This document shows, one piece after another, positions 5,802 to 32,725 of a stretch of 32,725 bases of DNA. The notes under the pieces were generated by a model that saw only the letters and a program-made list of their open reading frames with translations, was not told where the DNA came from and did no database searches. The DNA lies in contig JASEJC010000007.1 of the NCBI GenBank assembly GCA_030016755.1, positions 1 through 32,725 on the forward strand, read 5' to 3'. The number at the start of each line of letters is the position of its first letter. Within the stretch, counting starts at the first letter, position 1. The DNA is from Candidatus Hodarchaeaceae archaeon (GTDB lineage Archaea; Hadarchaeota; Hadarchaeia; Hadarchaeales; Hadarchaeaceae). Both the position numbers and the translations under genes were made by a program.

Positions 5802-6954
5802 CTAAGCGTGAAGTTCAATGATATCCTTGTCTCGGAGGATGTAATCGCGAGACACCCGCTGTCCCGGAAACTTCGTTGAACCCCACACTCGGGCGAACTT
5901 GAGGCCCTTCTCGAAATCCTTGTGCACCGAGCGCGCCACATGGAGAACCGTCGACCCCTTTGGTAGGACAAGCGGGCGCCTAGTGGGTTCCTCGTCAGGG
6001 CGTTTGGTGTACACGCGGATGAGATCGAGGTTCTCGTAAATCGATTTTTTAAGCCCCTCCGTTGTATCATTGGCCGCGATTATCTGGAATTGATCACCAA
6101 ACTCTCGTTCCACCAGCTTGAGCTTAGGAGAGGTCTCAGGCAAGTCGCACTTCGTAAGCACGATAAACGCACGGATATAGACGGTGGCCTCGTCCAGCGC
6201 CTCTTCAAGCTCCTCGATCGTCACGGGTTCTTCGATTGCTACGAAAGCGTTGTGGATGTTGCGCTCCTGCAGGGCGCGTTTGATTTCTGCCTCCCCACCA
6301 TACACCATGCCGGCACCTCTGATTTCCACTCCCCCTGTGGATCGACGTTGGATGGTGATTTTTGGCTGTGTTTGGTTTAGCTTGATTCCCGCCGCCCTGA
6401 ACTCGCTAACGAGAGTTTGAATCTGTTGAACCGGATCTGCTGAGACATCGATGACGAGGGCGATAACATCCGCAGTTCGCGCGACGCTGAGGGGCTGTCC
6501 TCCAAGTCCCTTACCAAGTCTCGACCCCTCCACCAAAGCGGGTACTTCTACCAGCTGGACCTGTACGTCTTCAAATTGCATCATGCCGGGCACGGGTTCA
6601 CGGGTGGTGAACGGATAGTCCGCAACCTCCGGGCGGGCGCTCGTTAGCTTTCGGAGCAGCGTGGACTTCCCAGAGTTCGGTAGCCCCACAAGCACCACTT
6701 GCGCGGCACCTTCCTTCTTGACCGCGAAACCCGGGCCTCCGCCCCTGCCGACCCTGCGCTCGCGCTTTTCTTGGAGCTCTCGGCGGAGCTTGGCCAAGCG
6801 CCGCTTGAGCGTCCTGAGCAGTTTTTCGGTCCCCCTTGTGTTTTGGAGCGACGCGGATGAGCTCCTCTGTCGCTAGGATTCGTTCTTCCAAGGTACGCGC
6901 CTGGAGGTAACGTTCCTCTGCCTTAAAGTATTCTGGAGGCAAGTTCGCGGGCAT
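5802..6954 (-). CDS. DRG/Obg-like GTPase with TGS domain, frameshifted
   Basis: Read from ATG 6954 the N-terminus is MPANLPPEYFKAEERYLQA..., a helical start known in this archaeal TGS GTPase group. The frame is lost after IRVAPKHKG. Removing one base of the C5 run at 6831-6835 (G5 in the mRNA) joins it to TEKLLRTLKRRLAKLRREL and the GTPase domain, giving about 383 residues, the expected size. The domain has P-loop GLPNSGKST, the PFTTREPVPGM switch region and TKCD as G4. G3 is VEVPAL rather than a classic DxxG, as in relatives with DTPP. A TGS domain (PKGSTVLHVA, KDIIELH) ends it. As sequenced, only 5802-6797 reads without a shift. A sequencing error, a real mutation or programmed frameshifting are all possible. 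The family's role is ribosome-linked, details unknown. Confidence 0.85.
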
Positions 6955-7044: not shown

Positions 7045-7056
7045 GGAGATATCTCC
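7045..7056. promoter_or_regulatory. Perfect 12-bp palindrome upstream of the ncRNA promoter
   Basis: GGAGATATCTCC is a perfect palindrome. It sits 15 bases before the TATA box of the candidate ncRNA, in the spacer between divergent units. It is a possible operator, and its proximity also covers the BRE-upstream region. Confidence 0.4.
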
Positions 7057-7070
7057 AATTTTAAAAAAAT

Positions 7071-7078
7071 CTATAAAT
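7071..7078 (+). promoter_or_regulatory. TATA box of candidate structured RNA
   Basis: TATAAATA preceded by an A-rich run (TTTAAAAAAATC) is the cleanest TATA box in the window. Its centre predicts a start at about 7100-7104, which is where the terminal RNA helix begins. Confidence 0.7.
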
Positions 7079-7101
7079 ACACCTGCCGCACCAACACATG
7101 A

Positions 7102-7335
7102 GCGGCGGGGATGAAAGCCCGCGGAGAAGGCCGAACCGGAGCCTACGGGCAACGGGGAGTCGCGTAAAAACCTGGGCGAAAAACCGGGGGAGGACGCGGA
7201 TAAACACCGAGGAGGAACGCTGTGAGGCAATAACCGCGGGAAAAAGGCCCCAATCCGAAAAAATAACGAGCGAGCGAAGTGGTCGAGATTCGTAAGCTCG
7301 TTAGGAGAGTAAGAAAAGGGCCGAAATCCTCGCCA
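7102..7335 (+). ncRNA. Candidate structured non-coding RNA, family not recognised
   Basis: This 234-base stretch has no convincing ORF but has RNA-like architecture. The ends pair over 9 bp (7104-7112 with 7326-7334). A 7-bp helix joins 7118-7124 and 7234-7240, with a competing GCCC/GGGC pairing 7117-7120/7318-7321. A hairpin forms from 7161-7165/7194-7198 and 7171-7175/7184-7188. An 8-bp stem pairs 7264-7271 with 7296-7303 and continues as 7275-7278/7289-7292. Loops are A-rich and stems G+C-rich, typical of thermophile RNAs. A TATA box lies 25-30 bases upstream and a T-run follows. I looked for RNase P, SRP, 5S and C/D-box signatures and found none. Size and closed ends resemble a housekeeping RNA, but the function is unknown. 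Confidence 0.6.
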
Positions 7336-7344
7336 TTTTTGTTT
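7336..7344 (+). terminator. T-run terminator of the candidate RNA
   Basis: TTTTTGTTT directly follows the closing helix, as expected for archaeal oligo-T termination. It overlaps the stop codon of the convergent reductase gene. Confidence 0.5.
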
Positions 7345-8536
7345 ATGGTTTCACTAGGTAGTGCGTGTATTTCAAAATTCGTCTCAGCCCCAGCTCCCGG
7401 AGGATTTCTGGCGCTTTTGCCACCAAGGACCGGATGAGCCTGCCGTGGTGATCGAAGTCGAAATTCTTTAACACGAGCTTTTTAACATCGTCCCTACCAA
7501 GCAACCCGAGGATGGTATCAAGATCCTCGTCCGACATTCGTTCAAATGCTCTGCGTGCACGGAGCCCCAACTCGAACTCTCGGCCGAACTTGTCCTTGAC
7601 AGCTCGCGCGTAGGGCCGAAGCGCTTTTTCGTTAGGCTCTGCCTCTAACGCTCGGGTGGCCACCTCGGCCGCTAACTTTGCACAGGATAGACCAATGTAG
7701 ACGCCCCCGCCGGTGAGGGGTTTGACTTGGCCAGCGGCATCACCCACCAGCAGGACACGGTCGGTGCACAGTCTCCTTGAGAGAGGCTTTGGGATGATGC
7801 CCACGCAGACATTCAGGACCTGCCCTCCAGCCAACTTCTTGGAGACCACGGGGTGTTTCTTGACGAGGGAACGAAGCATTTGGAGCGGGTTGCCCTCCGC
7901 ACAGCCGAGCCCGACCCTGCAAACATCCCCGGCCTGCACCAGCCAGCCGAAAAATCCAGGGGCAAATGAACGGCCAAAATAGACCTCGGCTGCGTCCGCC
8001 TGCGTTTCAGCAACAAACTCGGCCTGAGCGCATTTTAGGTGTCGATTAGATTTTAGCAGACCGGCAGACCGCGCGACGGTGGAGGTCGGCCCATCCGCGC
8101 CCACCACCAAGCGCGCGCTGAGCTCGCCTCCCTCGATACCCCTGAGCTTCAGTATGGGCTCGCGGCCAAGCTTCAGGTCAACACATCTAGTTTTGAGGAG
8201 AAAGATGGCACCAGCTCTAGCCGCTTCCTTCGCGAGCGAACGGTCGAATTCTGCGCGGTCTATCACAAAAGCCTCAACTTTTCCACGGGTGAGTTCAACT
8301 GGTTGGTTGGAGGGGGGATAGATAACCGCGCGGCGGAGTTTTCCCAGCACCCACCTGCCAGGCTTGATCCCTAGCTCCTCGAATCCCTTGGCACCAACAA
8401 TCCCGGCGCAGCAGGCTGGGTTGCCCACCTCGCCGTGCTCCTCCACGACCACCACATCGAAGCCCCTTTCCGCTATTAGCCCAGCAGCAAAGCACCCAGC
8501 GGGCCCTCCGCCAACGATTGCAACATCGGTCCGCAG
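7343..8536 (-). CDS. Geranylgeranyl reductase-family flavoprotein, apparent CTG start
   Basis: An FAD-dependent enzyme expected to saturate the geranylgeranyl chains of archaeal membrane lipids. The FAD-binding Rossmann motif VAIVGGGPAGCFAAG is at the very N-terminus (GGGPAG about residues 9-14). GADGPTSTVARSAG (about 146) and GDAAGQVKPLTGGG (about 262) are the other FAD-contact motifs of the family. Length is 397 residues, normal. The first ATG/GTG-type codon (8455) would delete the Rossmann motif. Between the upstream in-frame stop and that motif there is no ATG, GTG or TTG. The only candidate with an AGGAGGTG five bases upstream is CTG 8536. A base error could also explain this. The substrate could be another isoprenoid. 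Confidence 0.88.
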   Translation of the reverse strand: MRTDVAIVGGGPAGCFAAGLIAERGFDVVVVEEHGEVGNPACCAGIVGAKGFEELGIKPGRWVLGKLRRAVIYPPSNQPVELTRGKVEAFVIDRAEFDRSLAKEAARAGAIFLLKTRCVDLKLGREPILKLRGIEGGELSARLVVGADGPTSTVARSAGLLKSNRHLKCAQAEFVAETQADAAEVYFGRSFAPGFFGWLVQAGDVCRVGLGCAEGNPLQMLRSLVKKHPVVSKKLAGGQVLNVCVGIIPKPLSRRLCTDRVLLVGDAAGQVKPLTGGGVYIGLSCAKLAAEVATRALEAEPNEKALRPYARAVKDKFGREFELGLRARRAFERMSDEDLDTILGLLGRDDVKKLVLKNFDFDHHGRLIRSLVAKAPEILRELGLRRILKYTHYLVKP

Positions 8537-28477: not shown

Positions 28478-28756
28478 TCAGTCTGCCTCTCGTGCAACTT
28501 TTACCCAAGGAGCACATTCATCTTCTATTTTTTCTGCAATTTGTTTCAAGTTCTCGAATGGTATGCTATATTTTGAACTTAGATCACTAAGCCACTTGTC
28601 TCTACCTTTCAGATAGCTTGGGTGTCCTCCTTGAACGGAGACCATTATTGTTTTAACTGTAATTTCTGCAACAATTTGGGCTGTGGCTAAAGTTACAACA
28701 GTTTCAAGCCATTCAGTGGCTTTTTTTATTAGTTTTTTTTGGAACTGCCGAGTCAT
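28478..28756 (-). CDS. Unknown short AT-rich ORF in the mevalonate-kinase position
   Basis: Read from ATG 28756 it encodes 92 residues: a basic start MTRQFQKKLIKKATEWLETV, a mildly hydrophobic helix-like middle (VTLATAQIVAEITVKTIMVSV), then QGGHPSYLKGRDKWLSDLSS and an acidic helix. I do not recognise it. It sits between MEMO and ipk, where many euryarchaea have mevalonate kinase, but has no GHMP-kinase motif and is far too short to be one. Base composition is much more A+T-rich than ipk. Longer starts up to 28843 would overlap the MEMO end. A TATA-like TATTAAATAAA (28775-28785) lies just before it, so it may have its own promoter. Confidence 0.6.
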   Translation of the reverse strand: MTRQFQKKLIKKATEWLETVVTLATAQIVAEITVKTIMVSVQGGHPSYLKGRDKWLSDLSSKYSIPFENLKQIAEKIEDECAPWVKVAREAD

Positions 28757-28775
28757 TTTTCTACCATGCACATTT

Positions 28776-29624
28776 TTATTTAATAACAATCGCGCCATAT
28801 CCGACAGCATCTGGGGCTGGTCGAATCTCGTAGGAAGTCGCATACTTTAGGAGCTTTGCTGATTTAGCTACACCCATTAGGGCAAAAAGCATGGCAGTCA
28901 CGCTTCCAACGCCACACATTGATATCCCGTGCTCCGTGACTGCCTTCAGTAGTTTGGTTGGTGAAAGTTCTAGAATAGCTTTGATAGCTATTTCATCCTG
29001 TTTCCTCGCGAATTCGTCCACCCGTAGTCCCCTCGGTGGGGCCTGATAGTAACTAGGACCTGCATGAGTGAAGTCGGTCGAAGCCAACACTACAACATCA
29101 GCTCCCTTGATTGCTTTGCCGATCTTTTTGCCTGCCTCTTCAGCTTTGCTGATGTTTCGAGATGGCGCGTACACCGGGACGATTTTAACCTCAGAACTTA
29201 GGTGTTGTAGAAAAGGCAGCTGCATCCCAATCGCATGTTCGTCTGCATGCACATCTGGATTTTCCTCGATGTGAATTTTTTCGGCAAGCTTCACATCTAC
29301 CGGTACTTTCCCCAGTGGAGTGACAAAAGTCTCGGTGGTGATTACGGCATCGTCATACCCAACATGATCGCCACCTATAACGACAAACGTTTCGGGAAAC
29401 CCGTCTTCCGCCAAAGCGTTAAAAACGTGGGCTGCAACTGGTCCGGAATATTCATATCCTGCATGTGGTACAACAGCCCCCTTGATGCTCCTCTCACCTC
29501 TAATCTTCAACTGCGGAACCTTACCTGGGCCCAATCGATGAGTATAACATCTTTCGATTTGCTCTAAAAGTGCCGATTTCTCCTGAATGATTGCCATCAT
29601 CTCAAAGCTCGAGGGATACCTCAC
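28776..29624 (-). CDS. MEMO1-family protein (AmmeMemoRadiSam component B)
   Basis: 282 residues of the MEMO fold, related to class III extradiol dioxygenases. Function in archaea is unsettled. Metal-site motifs are VVPHAGYEYSG (His), GGDHVG (commonly GPNHxG) and HGISMCGVGSVTAML (Cys). The family usually begins MRxPAVAGxFYP. Here the start reads MRYPSSFEMMAIIQEK, so the AVAGxFY part is lost or diverged, while residues after about 20 fit normally. The start is GTG 29624, immediately after the S2 stop, with GGTGA upstream; ATG 29600 is an alternative. Placement after rpsB is the conserved archaeal order. Confidence 0.9.
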   Translation of the reverse strand: MRYPSSFEMMAIIQEKSALLEQIERCYTHRLGPGKVPQLKIRGERSIKGAVVPHAGYEYSGPVAAHVFNALAEDGFPETFVVIGGDHVGYDDAVITTETFVTPLGKVPVDVKLAEKIHIEENPDVHADEHAIGMQLPFLQHLSSEVKIVPVYAPSRNISKAEEAGKKIGKAIKGADVVVLASTDFTHAGPSYYQAPPRGLRVDEFARKQDEIAIKAILELSPTKLLKAVTEHGISMCGVGSVTAMLFALMGVAKSAKLLKYATSYEIRPAPDAVGYGAIVIK

Positions 29625-32026: not shown

Positions 32027-32121
32027 TGGTGGGGTCGCCGAGATTTGAACTCGGGTCACCAGCTTTTTTGCGCCTCAGCGACCCAAAGCTGGCAGGATAG
32101 ACCAGGCTACCCCACGACCCC
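32027..32121 (-). tRNA. tRNA-Pro (TGG) with a 17-nt canonical intron
   Basis: On the minus strand, acceptor GGGGTCG (32121-32115) pairs with CGACCCC, followed by A and an encoded CCA (32029-32027). Anticodon stem CCAGC/GCTGG flanks a loop with TT, anticodon TGG (32085-32083) and G37. The intron is 32065-32081 at position 37/38: central helix TTTG/CAAA, 3-nt bulges, inner hairpin CGC-TGAG-GCG. The spliced product is 78 nt. It follows the archaeal bulge-helix-bulge rule exactly. Confidence 0.93.
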
Positions 32122-32142: not shown

Positions 32143-32150
32143 GTTTAAGA
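32143..32150 (-). promoter_or_regulatory. TATA box of tRNA-Pro
   Basis: The minus strand reads TCTTAAAC, centred 26 bases before the tRNA 5' end. It overlaps the 3' end of the LAGLIDADG/HTH gene. Confidence 0.5.
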
Positions 32151-32725
32151 AGTTTGCACGACGGGTTCAACGGCGAGGATAATCTCCGTCGCACCCCTCG
32201 CTCCAGGTTCAACGAGTGCCCATAACCACGCCTGCCCTCGTTTGCCGACTCGCCTGACTTTGCCCTCCCGCTCGAGGATTGGGATGTGGTGAGCTTGGAT
32301 CGTCGTGCGGGCCTTCCCTAGCGCTGCCGCGAGGTCGTCGTAGGTCTTGGGGCCGGAGGCGAGCTGCTGGAGGATGAGCGCCCGGGCCTCCTCGCCGCTC
32401 AAGACGTTCACGCGCTTGTAACTCGCGAACCCCTGCTCGAACTTCGCGCGCTTCTCAGGGTGAAGGGTGTGGATGCCGAGCTCCTTGAAACGCTTGAAGT
32501 TTCGCCAACCATGAATTGGGAGATTTTTGCCCTTGCTGTCATATTCGCTTGAGGTCATCCCCAACAACTCAAGACACATTTTTAAAAATTCAATCAGTTT
32601 TTCGTCTTTTGAGGAAATGTTCAAGTGATGTAAAATACCAGACTTTCTTATAATCACCGATCCTTCTGCGGCGAAAATCCCTTTTAAAAAGGGGATTGCA
32701 AATTTATCGTTAGTTGATATCGCTG
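32145..32725 (-). CDS. LAGLIDADG-type protein with C-terminal winged helix, partial (runs off window)
   Basis: The frame is open to the right edge, so the GTG at 32657 is not the start and 192 residues are visible. The first 23 read ...FLKGIFAAEGSV, a clear LAGLIDADG helix (consensus GxFDAEGSV) with Ala where the catalytic Asp usually is. The typical rest of that domain follows (IEFLKMCLELLG, GWRNFKRFKELGI, HPEKRAKF). From about residue 105 comes a winged helix-turn-helix (GEEARALILQQLASGPKTYDDLAAALGKARTTIQAH, REGKVRRVGKRG). Such archaeal proteins may be domesticated homing endonucleases acting as regulators, as in bacterial WhiA. The first LAGLIDADG copy would be beyond the edge. It lies beside an intron-bearing tRNA. 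Confidence 0.78.
   Translation of the reverse strand, partial: AISTNDKFAIPFLKGIFAAEGSVIIRKSGILHHLNISSKDEKLIEFLKMCLELLGMTSSEYDSKGKNLPIHGWRNFKRFKELGIHTLHPEKRAKFEQGFASYKRVNVLSGEEARALILQQLASGPKTYDDLAAALGKARTTIQAHHIPILEREGKVRRVGKRGQAWLWALVEPGARGATEIILAVEPVVQTS

Follow-up and report, generated by a model that had tools for sequence, protein, structure and literature searches.

A window of 32,725 nucleotides of archaeal DNA (contig C60 of genome G000, a Candidatus Hodarchaeaceae archaeon; 834 kb, 87% complete) carries on its plus strand, at 7104-7334, a gene for a structured RNA of about 235 bases, located between two minus-strand genes. That the gene belongs to a genuine family of structured RNAs is virtually certain. 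The family is likely to represent a new class of trans-acting archaeal RNA, specific to Hadarchaeota and unrelated to known RNA families, which would provide the core RNA of a particle in several separately controlled variants per cell and take part in an RNA-protein machine or act as a ribozyme. Hadarchaeota are a little-cultured phylum of the deep subsurface, although a culture of a thermophilic member is reported (PMC10811742). Apart from ribosomal RNA, tRNA, RNase P, signal recognition particle (SRP) and guide RNAs, we know of few structured trans-acting RNAs in archaea.

Secondary structure and covariation

The predicted fold comprises a closing helix (P1), a P2 domain with three hairpins and a P3 arm (Table 1). 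P1 can be read directly in the sequence, where G7104-T7112 pairs with A7326-C7334 in nine pairs, including one G-U. The fold energy of the region is -94.5 kcal/mol, compared with -76.1 ± 5.0 kcal/mol for shuffled sequences (z = -3.7; 0 of 200 shuffles as stable), and covariance model R1 matches 7104-7341 at 249 bits. The original prediction, made from the letters of the window, had proposed an orphan RNA at 7102-7335. This extent was about right, the helical core being 7104-7334 and the transcript probably running from about 7099 to 7344.

An RNAalifold consensus of 60 pairs was derived from an alignment of 34 long copies of the RNA. Pair-keeping changes on both sides were seen at least once in 40 of these pairs, and 98% of cells pair, compared with 33 to 44% when the partner is slid by 1 to 3 columns. 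In an alignment of 58 copies, which was fitted to the covariance model and hence leans towards the structure, 48 of the 60 pairs show pair-keeping changes on both sides and 96.5% of cells pair. Covariation is far above both slid and shuffled controls. It is seen, for example, in P3 (GGCCC/GACCC/GATCC against GGGCC/GGGTC/GGATC) and in the P3 arm hairpin, where 7/7 basal pairs are changed on both sides. The 9-bp closing helix and two inner helices (7118-7124/7234-7240 and 7264-7271/7296-7303) had been predicted at exactly these positions; all three recur in the consensus, and the compensatory changes looked for in them were found in each. By mutual information the strongest pairs are mostly consensus pairs, together with a helix extension (7209-7218); beyond these, nothing convincing emerged as a tertiary or pseudoknot pair.

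Conservation is not confined to helices. Of the unpaired positions, 35 are conserved in at least 93% of the 58 copies; most of these are A in joints and internal loops, which suggests contacts with protein or within a tertiary structure. A7145 and G7147 of the P2a tetraloop are invariant, and A7166, A7168-7170, G7189 and G7193 of P2b are at least 95% conserved. The loop motif AGTGGTCGA of the P3 arm is present in 34 of the 58 copies, in the long class; the loop includes UCGA, which is self-complementary. A run of 3 to 8 T follows the closing helix in the long-class copies examined (n = 32), as had been noted for the window copy, where it lies at 7336-7340. A protein-coding origin was rejected because most frames are stopped across copies; the RNA region of the window contains no open frame of 80 amino acids.

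Distribution, paralogues and genomic sites

The enolase of the window genome is closest to enolases of Hadesarchaea (70 to 77% identity), the next group being at 54%, which places the window in Hadarchaeota. A DNA search of 61 genomes gave relatives of the RNA at about 70 to 83% identity in 22, nearly all from the same family and often several per genome. With covariance models R1 and R2, the RNA was found in 22 of 28 Hadarchaeota genomes, in 1 to 6 diverged copies each, and in 0 of 366 genomes outside the phylum. Homologues in related genomes, a check proposed in the original prediction, thus exist; the word "orphan" calls for qualification, as the RNA belongs to a family with 1 to 6 copies per genome. 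No match was obtained in G007 and G012 (of one genus), G015, G022, G026 and G027; of these, G015 and G026 are incomplete.

In a tree of the copies, a long class (about 237 nt) is separate from two short classes (about 210 to 223 nt), in which the P3 apical loop AGTGGTCGAG, present in 34 copies, is missing. There are four clades with conserved sites: long copies beside GGR/DRG (including the window copy), copies 5' of polB, short class S1 beside GGR/DRG and short class S2 near glnA. Site alpha, between DRG/TrkA and GGR, holds the long class, S1 or both in tandem. Site beta is 23 to 50 bp 5' of, and on the same strand as, the gene for family-B DNA polymerase (Pfam PF00136) in families f1 and f3; since it is occupied in both, it is probably the oldest site. 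At site gamma, S2 has glutamine synthetase (glnA) nearby. Extra copies occur in some genera. The genes beside the copies are unrelated, and orientation varies, convergence with GGR being one of the arrangements.

In G007 and G012, only 41 and 15 nt, respectively, lie between GGR and the DRG gene behind it, with no RNA in the gap; the alpha copy was thus probably acquired whole, as an entire gene unit on the opposite strand. A different gene follows GGR in G022, so that the site is not comparable there.

Further observations concern the region upstream of polB. In f3 genomes (L051, L156 and L157), about 25 to 35 nt separate the T-run of the RNA from the polB start, with no obvious promoter, and expression of polB there may rely on read-through from the promoter of the RNA. 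In G007 (L189) and G012 (L186), perfect inverted repeats of 10 bp, starting with GGCGG (GGCGGGGAGG/CCTCCCCGCC and GGCGGAGGCG/CGCCTCCGCC), enclose the stretch immediately 5' of polB. Such a repeat arises in about 1.7% of shuffles for each stretch, and the stretches were picked after the repeats had been seen, making this a lead only. Their interiors are unrelated to each other and to the RNA family, and neither was found elsewhere in the phylum. The region upstream of polB in G001 gives a weak match (21.7 bits with R1, 14.2 with R2). These stretches may hold very diverged members of the family or different RNAs, perhaps replacements. Further upstream in L189 and L186 there is a second shared element, GGGGCGACCCCAAGCTGGCTGGGACTGGTGTTGGTCAACGCT...CAGTCGCCCC in G007 with a relative in G012, which looks like another small structured RNA.

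Promoter and palindrome

The TATA box of the window copy (TCTATAAATA) predicts a start at about 7099-7104, at the 5' strand of the closing helix, in agreement with the original prediction. A palindrome at 7045-7056 had been missed there, as had the paralogous family. The palindrome, consensus GGARATATYTCC, starts 57 to 60 nt before the first base of the closing helix in most long-class copies, and frequently deviates from the consensus at one or two positions. In L162, L038, L032 and L157 it is weak or missing, in two f3 copies it is displaced to -75, and the short classes lack it. The only exact match in the window genome is the one at 7045-7056. In a non-exhaustive survey of the phylum, covering matches whose surroundings were read, intergenic exact matches were promoters of long-class RNAs and the rest lay within open frames, in some cases spurious ones that overlie RNA promoters. 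The pattern suggests a dedicated regulator of the long-class RNA, which would bind the palindrome. A scan for sigma-70 promoters and intrinsic terminators was uninformative for an archaeal host.

Table 1. Coordinates of the RNA gene, its predicted structural elements and the flanking genes in the window
Feature	Position	Strand	Description	Basis
Palindrome	7045-7056	.	GGAGATATCTCC (consensus GGARATATYTCC), putative operator	Position in most long-class copies
TATA box	7070-7079	+	TCTATAAATA, with A-rich stretch upstream resembling a B recognition element (BRE)	Read directly; TATA-like element at same distance in homologues
Predicted transcript	7099-7344	+	RNA gene, long class, GGR/DRG site	TATA spacing, covariance model R1 match, T-run end
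P1, 5' strand	7104-7112	+	Closing helix, pairs with 7326-7334	4/7 consensus pairs changed on both sides
P2, 5' strand	7118-7124	+	Pairs with 7234-7240	Covariation
P2a	7136-7155	+	Hairpin, UACG/UAAG tetraloop at 7144-7147	Consensus structure
P2b	7160-7199	+	Hairpin, near-invariant purine internal loop (AAAAA/GAAGG type)	Covariation in both stems
P2c	7204-7223	+	Hairpin	5/5 pairs changed on both sides
P2, 3' strand	7234-7240	+		Covariation
P3, 5' strand	7246-7250	+	Pairs with 7318-7322	100% of cells paired
P3 arm hairpin	7264-7303	+	7264-7271/7296-7303, then 7274-7280/7288-7293; conserved apical loop AGTGGTCGAG	
P3, 3' strand	7318-7322	+		Covariation
P1, 3' strand	7326-7334	+	Closing helix	Covariation
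T-run	7336-7340	+	TTTTTGTTT, presumed archaeal terminator	T-runs after closing helix in homologues
DRG	5802-6797	-	DRG-type GTPase with TGS domain	Flanking gene
GGR	7343-8455	-	FAD-dependent oxidoreductase resembling geranylgeranyl reductase	Flanking gene, convergent with RNA

Comparison with known RNA families

In a scan against Rfam 15, a check set beforehand, neither the window copy nor the other copies gave anything above noise. The absence of RNase P, SRP, C/D and H/ACA signatures, noted by eye in the original prediction, was borne out by a test of each. Archaeal RNase P RNA (RF00373) does not match 7104-7334 up to E = 10, and archaeal SRP RNA (RF01857) does not match it either. The true RNase P RNA (G000:C59:2470-2757, 196 bits) and SRP RNA (G000:C1:14667-14977) lie elsewhere in the genome, SRP RNA being present in 23 of 28 Hadarchaeota, one per genome. 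Box C (RUGAUGA), which with box D (CUGA) marks C/D box guide RNAs, occurs in 0 of 58 copies, and the ACA of H/ACA guide RNAs is in the last 25 nt of only two of the 58. Group I introns were likewise rejected (no Rfam match up to E = 10, and the locus is intergenic with its own promoter elements), as were OLE, GOLLD and ROOL, whose Rfam models do not match the window copy up to E = 10 or other copies up to E = 1. All other Rfam families were rejected too. The tRNA-like 3' end GGGTCGAATCCCC was discarded because its bases covary in P1 and P3. No canonical kink-turn (the L7Ae-binding motif) was seen by eye; GGA/GAA at the P1 junction could form sheared pairs. A literature search that left out preprints and most subscription journals turned up no account of such an RNA in Hadesarchaea; a paper on a group I intron does no more than cite a Hadesarchaea reference.

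Phage, plasmid or viral origin was rejected, as phages, plasmids and viral contigs contain no match. The 15-base loop motif matches 32 viral contigs, where the covariance model gives only fragments of at most 13 bits; these matches are therefore due to chance.

Proposed function of the RNA and alternative explanations

On balance, we favour a trans-acting RNA of a new family confined to Hadarchaeota, serving as the scaffold of an RNA-protein particle in separately controlled variants. Transcription would begin from the TATA box, a dimeric DNA-binding regulator would act at the palindrome and the transcript would end at the T-run. The protein or proteins of the particle would recognise A-rich junctions, which all paralogues share, and the apical loop of the long class (AGUGGUCGAG) may serve a function absent from the short classes. 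Paralogues that share the core and differ in P3 arm and promoter might then be variants for different conditions. Action in trans is consistent with copies that lie near unrelated genes in differing orientations and have a common core and promoters of their own, and the constant spacing of the palindrome, together with its uniqueness in the window genome, also counts in favour. Strong covariation, four paralogous clades and an apparently dedicated promoter element point to an undescribed RNA-protein machine or regulator, and precise sequences are now at hand for testing.

Three points weigh against this interpretation. G007, G012, G022 and G027 have no recognisable copy, meaning that the RNA is either not universal or diverged beyond detection. 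The transcript is a predicted one and the partner protein a postulated one. Finally, the role of the conserved purine junctions could lie in catalysis or in the tertiary structure of the RNA and not in protein binding.

A regulated decoy, titrating RNA polymerase or a regulator in the manner of bacterial 6S RNA or CsrB-type sponges, would agree with the several copies, the promoter element shared by the long class and the conserved unpaired motifs. It is nevertheless unlikely, as the consensus has neither a long open duplex bubble (6S) nor repeated binding hairpins (CsrB), and we know of no archaeal precedent.

There is a similarly small chance that the RNA is a ribozyme or a derivative of a mobile element and spreads as a unit. 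Such spread might account for the tandem copies, for the additional copies that some genera have at varied sites and for GGR and DRG being nearly contiguous in G007 and G012. However, the main sites are the same from genus to genus and copies group by site in the tree, indicating that inheritance is mostly vertical; in addition, matches are lacking in phages, plasmids and viral contigs and among the ribozyme and intron families of Rfam.

The RNA at the polB site could instead serve DNA polymerase B as a 5' leader or attenuator, the other copies being displaced duplicates. In two families it ends 23 to 50 nt short of the coding region, with which it shares the strand, and f3 genomes appear to lack a separate promoter between the T-run and the polB start codon. 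This explanation is quite improbable. The position of a riboswitch or leader is fitted at the polB site only: the window copy converges on GGR, and neighbours vary elsewhere, those at the glnA site being often on the opposite strand. Such scattered, unrelated sites, one with a convergent neighbour, argue for a trans-acting RNA. Moreover, the promoter-like CTTTTATCTGAAAAG that follows the RNA at polB in f1 is also found at polB genes without the RNA, and in several genomes polB has no RNA upstream.

A guide RNA for rRNA modification is highly improbable: archaea employ many C/D and H/ACA guides, and the size would allow a multi-hairpin H/ACA RNA, but the boxes are missing as described above, and a variable guide segment within a pocket that is otherwise conserved is lacking as well.

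Other features of the window

The name GGR is given by resemblance, the only Pfam match being FAD_binding_3. Rfam places two tRNA genes at 294-391 and 429-539, of which ARAGORN calls only the first, as tRNA-Phe with the odd anticodon AAA; both probably contain introns because they are over-long. At 32027-32121 ARAGORN reports a tRNA with a four-base anticodon (tggg), with no Rfam match at the gathering threshold, which is probably a misread intron-containing tRNA. It adjoins a short protein (32145-32657, minus strand) with matches to LAGLIDADG_3 and an ArsR-type helix-turn-helix, possibly a homing-endonuclease remnant turned regulator. A 121-amino-acid open frame at 28478-28843 (minus strand), inside an apparent isoprenoid gene cluster, has no Pfam match.

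Relation to known systems

The family appears to be a new class of RNA; in general character it is similar to the orphan ornate RNAs. OLE, GOLLD and ROOL are large ornate bacterial RNAs, and OLE, of about 600 nt, acts in an RNA-protein complex (PMC12286853, PMC9723947). Like them, the Hadarchaeota RNA was found by comparative genomics, has a complex covarying fold with conserved unpaired bases, is restricted to a lineage and has an unsettled biochemical function. It differs in being archaeal and smaller, with several paralogues per genome. Trans action, regulated promoters and sometimes several paralogues are also features of bacterial 6S and other multi-paralogue regulatory RNAs, from which the family departs in its architecture and its lack of an Rfam match. 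It shares with archaeal SRP RNA its similar size and the character of a stable archaeal RNA, but the two do not match and SRP RNA is present separately. Archaeal RNase P RNA is likewise a stable RNA of 200 to 300 nt with a closing helix and A-rich conserved joints; again the two do not match, and the same genome encodes each from its own gene.
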